From Natronomonas aquatica (lineage in GTDB: Archaea; Halobacteriota; Halobacteria; Halobacteriales; Haloarculaceae), in NCBI RefSeq assembly GCF_024449025.1, contig NZ_JAHLKM010000001.1, positions 248,001-312,000 of the forward strand: 64,000 bases of DNA. Direction: 5' to 3'. The notes below the pieces were generated by a model. It saw only the letters and a list, made by a program, of their open reading frames with translations, was not told the origin of the DNA and did not search any database. A program made the position numbers and the translations under genes. Numbering within the stretch: the first letter of the stretch is position 1; each line of letters begins with the position of its first letter. Positions 29,401-56,416 of this stretch are shown here, piece by piece.

Positions 29401-29473
29401 CGCCCGAGGCGGGATTTGAACCCGCGTCACAACCGTGACAGGGTTGTATGATGGGCCACTACACCACCCGGGC
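29401..29473 (-). tRNA. tRNA-Asp (GTC)
   Basis: A 73-nt tRNA on the - strand. The acceptor strands GCCCGGG and CTCGGGC pair (one G-U), with discriminator G as expected for tRNA-Asp. The anticodon arm ACAACC-CTGTCAC-GGTTGT gives loop CTGTCAC with anticodon GTC. The T arm is GCGGG-TTCAAAT-CCCGC. No intron is present. The CCA end is not encoded. The A/T-richer nuclease gene lies directly 3' of it, a common arrangement for DNA inserted at a tRNA. Confidence 0.95.
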
Positions 29474-31434: not shown

Positions 31435-31442
31435 TTTATATA
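31435..31442 (+). promoter_or_regulatory. TATA box of candidate structured RNA, copy 1
   Basis: TTTATATA, the best TATA match in this area. It lies 22 nt before the A of the conserved ATG at 31465 (about 26 nt centre to A). The identical octamer with identical spacing precedes copy 2 at 56275. Confidence 0.7.
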
Positions 31443-31462
31443 CGAGGACGCGGCCACCGCCC

Positions 31463-31560
31463 GTATGCGCTGAGCGATCGTCGGTGATCCGCCGGGGCGG
31501 GAGGGTGCGAAAGCACCGTAGCGGAACACGGGTCACCGGAAGAGCTGTTCCGCCTGTTCG

Positions 31561-31561
<1 letters not shown>
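31463..31561 (+). ncRNA. Candidate structured small RNA, copy 1
   Basis: No protein frame of size fits here, yet the sequence shares with 56303-56384 an upstream TATA box at the same distance, a CCGTATG..CTGAGCG start, the identical 18-nt block GATCCGCCGGGGCGGGAG (31486-31503) and identical CCGCCTGTTCGC (31550-31561). Foldable parts: helix A 31482-31490 with 31530-31538 (one G-U); a GNRA hairpin GGTGC-GAAA-GCACC (31504-31517) absent from copy 2; helix B 31521-31527 (GCGGAAC) with 31547-31553 (GTTCCGC), which would cross helix A as a pseudoknot. Helix A is supported by base changes on both sides between the copies. The 3' end is not known and reaches the ligA stop. I do not recognise it as a named RNA family. 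Confidence 0.6.
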
Positions 31562-34811
<3,250 letters not shown>

Positions 34812-42393: not shown

Positions 42394-42846
42394 CTTCGGT
42401 CGGCAGAGGAAGCCCGGTTCCCGTGAGCGGGGCGGCGTCGCCGCCCTGCCCATGAGGAAAGTCCCCCCACCCTCCGGGCAGGTGACCGGGCGCAAGCCCG
42501 GGGCGGGAGACCGCCGGCGCTGGAACAGAAACGGGACCACCCGCCCCGACCGATGAGACGCGTTCGGCCGTCAAAACGGCCGGCGGCGTTCGCGGGGTCA
42601 CCCCGCGAACGCGCGAACCGACCCGCAAGGGAAGGGAGTTAACCCGTCGAGGGCTGGGCGGTCGTCATCGACGACCGCCACGCGAGCGGCGTCAGCCGCG
42701 AGCCGACGGGCGGGAACGGATGGAACGGCGAACCCTCACCGGTGCAAGCCCGTCGCCACTGGTAGCCCGGAGACGCGGCGGGCGCTCAGCCGAATGCCGG
42801 GCCGAACAGAAGGGGGCTTACTCTCCTCAGCCGTCACCGACCGAAG
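42394..42846 (+). ncRNA. rnpB: RNase P RNA (archaeal type A)
   Basis: The catalytic RNA of RNase P, which trims tRNA 5' leaders. Helix P1 is formed by CTTCGGTCGG (42394-42403) and CCGACCGAAG (42837-42846), defining both ends. Conserved region I GAGGAAAGTCC is at 42454-42464. ACAGAAAC is found near 42527, and conserved regions IV/V ACAGAAGGGGGCTTAC at 42806-42821, matching the universally conserved core. Length about 453 nt, as in haloarchaea. Exact mature ends are set from P1 pairing only. Confidence 0.93.
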
Positions 42847-51785: not shown

Positions 51786-51859
<74 letters not shown>

Positions 51860-56274: not shown

Positions 56275-56282
56275 TTTATATA
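56275..56282 (+). promoter_or_regulatory. TATA box of candidate structured RNA, copy 2
   Basis: TTTATATA, identical to the element at 31435 and at the same distance (22 nt) from the A of the conserved ATG at 56305. The 22-nt spacers share few bases apart from GGCC near the middle and CCGT at the end, so the spacing is conserved beyond the sequence. Confidence 0.7.
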
Positions 56283-56302
56283 GGATGCCGGGACCAGCGG
56301 CC

Positions 56303-56384
56303 GTATGACCTGAGCGTTCGCCGCGATCCGCCGGGGCGGGAGTGTGGCATACGGATCGCGATCGGAAGCGTGCCGCCTGTTCGC
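56303..56384 (+). ncRNA. Candidate structured small RNA, copy 2
   Basis: Second copy of the element at 31463. It starts GTATGACCTGAGCG, keeps the 18-nt block (56325-56342) and the 12-nt block CCGCCTGTTCGC (56373-56384), and lacks the GNRA hairpin of copy 1. Helix A is CGCGATCCG (56322-56330) with CGGATCGCG (56352-56360), 9 perfect pairs; relative to copy 1 at least two pairs changed on both sides (G-C to C-G, T-A to C-G). GTGGCA (56344-56349) can pair with TGCCGC (56371-56376), again crossing helix A. It ends close to the 3' end of the convergent epimerase gene. No protein frame explains it. Confidence 0.6.
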
Positions 56385-56416
56385 CAGCTACACCGACAGT
56401 CGGGCGACCGCGCCTG

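Follow-up and report, generated by a model that had tools for sequence, protein, structure and literature searches.

A multicopy family of predicted leaderless small RNAs in haloarchaea with a start-any-stop frame, an H-type pseudoknot and a shared promoter box

Ribosome-bound RNAs that have no protein product have been documented in haloarchaea (PMC6104027, PMC12482152). The rancRNA_s194 and other ribosome-associated sRNAs of H. volcanii resemble the RNAs described here in being short, intergenic and haloarchaeal, and s194 also has its own TATA box; s194 differs, however, in being reported as conserved within Haloferax only, at >94% identity, and for the published H. volcanii ribosome-associated sRNAs no description was found of a family in many copies, of a pseudoknot or of a start-X-stop frame (PMC6104027, PMC12482152). 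Another H. volcanii transcript, sRNA_61, is 111 nt long and has a high ribosome occupancy. Minimal ORFs at which ribosomes are trapped or drop off are exemplified by the lambda bar minigenes and the AUG-stop uORFs of plants. As in the RNAs described here, these stop at once or one codon after the start, but they are located within mRNAs or leaders whereas a discrete, structured, multicopy RNA would begin with the frame reported below. A literature search found no such RNA family, and a class that reaches 38 copies in a genome and occurs in roughly half of the genomes sampled from this well-studied archaeal order appears to be previously unrecognised.

The copy examined in most detail is located on the plus strand at positions 56275-56384 of the window, the 64,000-nt stretch of the Natronomonas aquatica genome analysed here. 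An earlier note, made from the sequence alone, described a TATA octamer, a 9-bp helix A and a crossing helix in this copy, and all three are present at those places. The TATA box (TTTATATA, 56275-56282), apparent in the sequence and in the consensus of a 23-copy alignment, has its first T 30 nt 5′ of an ATG and is followed, between TATA and +1, by a promoter box (CGGGACCA, 56289-56296; consensus CGNGRCCA) evident from the alignments and from matches at other genes of the predicted regulon discussed below. At the predicted +1 there is a leaderless two-codon ORF, ATG ACC TGA (56305-56313). Helix A is formed by CGCGATCCG (56322-56330) with CGGATCGCG (56352-56360), and the crossing helix B, with 7 pairs, by GTGGCAT (56344-56350) with GTGCCGC (56370-56376), all four arms being identified by covariation. 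The conserved loop 1 (..GGCGGGAGT; 56331-56343) crosses helix B, loop 3 (56361-56369) is variable in the alignments, and helix B is followed by a 3′-tail (CTGTTCGC, 56377-56384) that tail comparison shows to be conserved, with CTGYYCGC, CTGCTCGC and CTGTCAGC as family variants. The search pattern suggested earlier, containing ATG-N3-CTGAGCG, has zero matches within the window because its spacer is off by one; the actual motif is ATG-N2-CTGAGCG (ATG ACC TGA GCG).

A covariance model recognises exactly two copies in the window, 56275-56386 and 31435-31563, with scores of 111.5 and 101.3 bits versus 12.6 bits for the next best place, both copies being among the 23 oriented sequences from which the model was built. 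The second, also on the plus strand, has a TATA box at 31435-31442, the promoter box CGCGGCCA at 31449-31456, the ORF ATG CGC TGA at 31465-31473, helix A at 31482-31491/31529-31538, helix B at 31521-31527/31547-31553 and a tail at 31554-31561. It also contains a GNRA hairpin (31504-31517), an example of the hairpins inserted in some copies. The two copies are 25 kb apart, have 81% identity over only ~72 nt, and their flanks differ. The window also holds the archaeal RNase P RNA (42408-42826) and tRNA genes at 51786-51859 and 29401-29473.

BLASTN searches with the stretch identified 7 copies in the N. aquatica genome and matches in 20 of 40 relatives. With the covariance model, 18 copies score above 64 bits in N. 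aquatica, separated by a gap from the next match at 28.5 bits, and the RNA is present in all 20 genomes of the genus, in 73 of the 96 at the taxonomic family level (maximum 38 copies per genome) and in 164 of the 293 at the order level (~56% of those sampled), representing 48 of 87 genera. In a sample of the phylum, all 28 positive genomes fell inside the order and none was found outside. Members are present on contigs named as Natronomonas, Haloferax, Halorussus, Halolamina, Halosimplex, Halobellus, Halobacterium and others, and in the genus that matches the Haloferax scores, 15 of 15 genomes are positive, nearly all with two strong copies. Neither window copy has a match in Rfam 15 at the gathering score and, up to an E of 10, the 56275 copy has only chance-level matches.

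Helix A, with 9 to 10 bp, and helix B, with 7 bp, cross to form an H-type pseudoknot supported by covariation on both helices. Among 23 copies, 95.1% of the cells in the alignment are paired versus 82.2% when shuffled, and among 88 copies these values are 97.3% and 71.8%. In the 88-copy alignment, both sides have changed in 16 of 17 pairs, with 346 double-changed cells versus 93 in the shuffles, and shifting the partner by one base reduces pairing to about 31%; as this alignment was fitted to helix A and not to helix B, helix B provides the more independent test. Nested folding of a single RNA scored worse than its shuffles (z = +1.74), which a pseudoknot would explain since the folding program cannot represent one. 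Two single strands of the pseudoknot, GCGGGAG and CUGUUCGC, are conserved. An additional helix between GCGGG in loop 1 and YUCGC in the tail could pair in 85% of cells, lacks covariation support and was rejected. Inspection of the alignments for C/D boxes, and for hairpins with an ACA, revealed no features of C/D or H/ACA guide RNAs, consistent with the Rfam result.

Throughout the family, the TATA box has its first T 30-31 nt 5′ of the start codon, which places this codon at the expected site of transcription initiation in haloarchaea; a TATA box 28 nt upstream has been called optimal (PMC6104027). All 18 N. aquatica copies have, at the expected +1, ATG or GTG, one codon and then TGA, TAA or TAG. 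Of 213 distinct copies, 193 have RTG-NNN-stop at the +1 predicted by the TATA position (GTG in 137 and ATG in 56; TGA in 171, TAA in 15 and TAG in 7), an arrangement found at only 2 of 17,756 offsets elsewhere in the RNAs and 46 of 110,055 in the flanking genome, a background of 0.0001-0.0004 per offset (~0.04% at most). The second codon can be any sense codon, mostly for Thr, Arg or Pro, and in four further copies the stop directly follows the start (ATG TGA or GTG TGA). Translation of the frame is probable. In 96% of the parsed copies the start of helix A lies 14-17 nt from +1 and 5-8 nt past the stop, and the mRNA entry of a ribosome positioned on such a frame would end at about the start of the pseudoknot. 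The stop-codon readthrough signal of gammaretroviruses consists of a stop, an 8-nt spacer and an H-type pseudoknot, and so has a similar stop-to-pseudoknot spacing. Since RNA length is not restricted to multiples of three, there is no conserved frame beyond the stop, and termination rather than readthrough is likely.

The CGNGRCCA box between TATA and +1 is kept across the RNA family but is not confined to it. The promoter pattern occurs at 32 places in the N. aquatica genome, versus 1 for a reversed-pattern control, and at 138 versus 5 in eight other genomes. In N. aquatica, it precedes leaderless or nearly leaderless genes for a type IV pilin (PF07790), a T2SSE ATPase (PF00437), a TctA-like protein (PF01970), a secreted PLD protein (PF13091; PLDc_2) and, by a weak match, a Cas4-like nuclease (PF01930). 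In Haloferax, the box is 5′ of genes for DUF7382 pilin-like, Cas4-like, DUF7857, T2SSE and DUF7283 proteins, an OB-fold protein (weak) and a ParA-like ATPase, and in the genomes that we take to be those of N. pharaonis and N. moolapensis it is 5′ of PLD, DUF7382, DUF3006, T2SSE and TctA genes. The DUF7382 and OB-fold genes are likewise counted as leaderless. Across the order, the box can be seen 5′ of most Cas4-like genes and of many TctA genes. Natural transformation in the methanogens Methanococcus and Methanoculleus requires type IV-like pili, a TctA-like protein and an OB-fold protein, and the transformation genes there (pili, TctA-like, OB-fold, nuclease) are of the same kinds as the genes that carry the box, although no regulatory RNA or promoter box was seen described for that system (PMC10133366). 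Based on this resemblance, we name the set a predicted DNA-uptake regulon. The shared box makes it likely that the RNAs belong to such a competence-like regulon, and it also predicts the members of this haloarchaeal regulon, such regulons being little known in archaea. Nearly all genomes of the order have Cas4-like and TctA genes whereas only 56% of those sampled have the RNA, which is therefore no obligatory component of the machinery for uptake. Correlating the presence and absence of the RNA with these two genes was uninformative, both being near universal. At one locus (L396; G000:C19:88307-88328, minus strand), a perfect regulon promoter is followed by short tandem repeats (cacgggccgcatcaac units) with neither an RNA nor a long ORF. 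At another (L494; G043:C1:1735083, minus strand), the ORF that follows the box resembles by eye a TnpB-type transposon protein and, in G002:C1:1215861-1216635, an RNA copy lies immediately 3′ of a Cas4-like gene on the same strand.

The comparisons establish an RNA family with a pseudoknot, a start-any-stop frame at fixed spacing and a shared promoter box; transcription itself, and every step beyond it, we infer from these sequences. The family is almost certainly real and its members are very probably transcribed autonomously, in agreement with the earlier proposal that this is an RNA gene, driven by a promoter of its own, in which a pseudoknot is conserved. That proposal missed the ~18 copies per genome, the spread through the order, the leaderless start-X-stop frame and the occurrence of the promoter box at DNA-uptake-type genes as well. 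Taken as a whole, the evidence somewhat favours leaderless, autonomous sRNAs that engage ribosomes and are made together with the DNA-uptake-type regulon. Each RNA would be transcribed from a TATA promoter with the dedicated CGNGRCCA box, starting at the start codon; a ribosome would initiate on this leaderless 5′-codon, synthesise a Met-X dipeptide and terminate while the pseudoknot abuts its mRNA entry, and the folded domain would thus never be unwound. Made with the genes for type IV pili and DNA processing, the RNA would most likely act in trans when the regulon is on, either on translation or as a ribosome-held regulator. Ribosome loading as the working mechanism has a probability close to, but below, even. 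More tentatively, these RNAs might constitute a multicopy ribosome-capturing class in which the minigene parks a terminating ribosome at the pseudoknot and which, being on with the natural-transformation regulon, reprogrammes translation during DNA uptake. The design of start codon, one codon, stop and pseudoknot makes a specific and testable prediction, namely that ribosomes are part of an RNA device.

Doubtful, yet the strongest of the alternatives, is an ordinary family of trans-acting, base-pairing sRNAs that find mRNAs through loop 3 or loop 1, with the ORF serving only to protect the 5′-end or to bar elongating ribosomes. Dispersed autonomous copies and a variable loop 3 are consistent with this, as are the many intergenic sRNAs of H. 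volcanii, some ribosome-associated and without a protein product (PMC12482152, PMC6104027). The most conserved single strands, however, face each other and do not vary with targets, there is no seed-like conserved free 5′-end, and this reading does not account for the constant spacing between stop and pseudoknot.

RTGNNCTGA is unlikely to be an RNA motif for structure or protein binding with only a resemblance to start-X-stop. In ~7% of copies ATC, ATT or GTC (chiefly ATC or ATT) occupies the start-codon position, some of them with the TGA kept, as such a motif would allow, and translation may therefore be unneeded in some copies. But were RTGNNCTGA only an RNA motif, TGG and sense codons would be expected among the non-TGA copies, and it is TAA and TAG that replace TGA. 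A third-codon stop is clearly lacking in only three copies; TGG occurs once, in the N. pharaonis orthologue (ATG CGC TGG TAG), where the next in-frame codon is a stop. ATG and GTG are, moreover, freely interchangeable, and the motif is positioned exactly at the leaderless +1.

The RNA copies are intergenic, with upstream neighbours that are co-directional or divergent, and downstream of the 18 N. aquatica copies the next gene is convergent, co-directional or distant. A cis-acting leader or attenuator of an adjoining gene is very unlikely, given that variety: at some loci a co-directional gene does begin within about 100-200 nt 3′ of the RNA, but elsewhere the next gene is convergent or far away, and a separate TATA-like box immediately precedes some of the co-directional genes. 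The earlier view that this is not a cis-riboswitch is therefore upheld, the 18 copies having no constant co-directional gene downstream. In the window each copy points, as had been noted, at a convergent gene's 3′-end, but the variety among the 18 copies means that this is not a family trait, and because neighbours and orientation differ among the 18 copies, the general antisense role raised in that context is unsupported.

Copies that are dispersed and variable in number, with a promoter box common to the regulon, might also be DNA elements, either decoy promoters that titrate the transcription factor of the regulon or a mobile repeat. A transcript is, however, to be expected from the ORF and the covarying pseudoknot, plasmids have no match to the RNA family and viral contigs only weak and unconvincing ones (27 and 24 bits), and at the fre-mce slot the copies are both diverged and syntenic between species, making a DNA element highly improbable. 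This fre-RNA-mce arrangement is kept in three other Natronomonas genomes, a fourth keeping the mce side, and the RNAs in the slot have diverged with compensated changes in their helices. A recent segmental duplication without function or conserved structure, the refuting case named earlier and suggested by two similar stretches 25 kb apart, is excluded by these diverged orthologues and the covariation, and its probability is negligible in view also of the short match, the different flanks and the order-wide family. One genome (G122, contig 1) has 37 RNA matches, many with near-identical promoters (TTTATATCCGAGAGCGGGACCA), which suggests a recent expansion of the copies in that genome.
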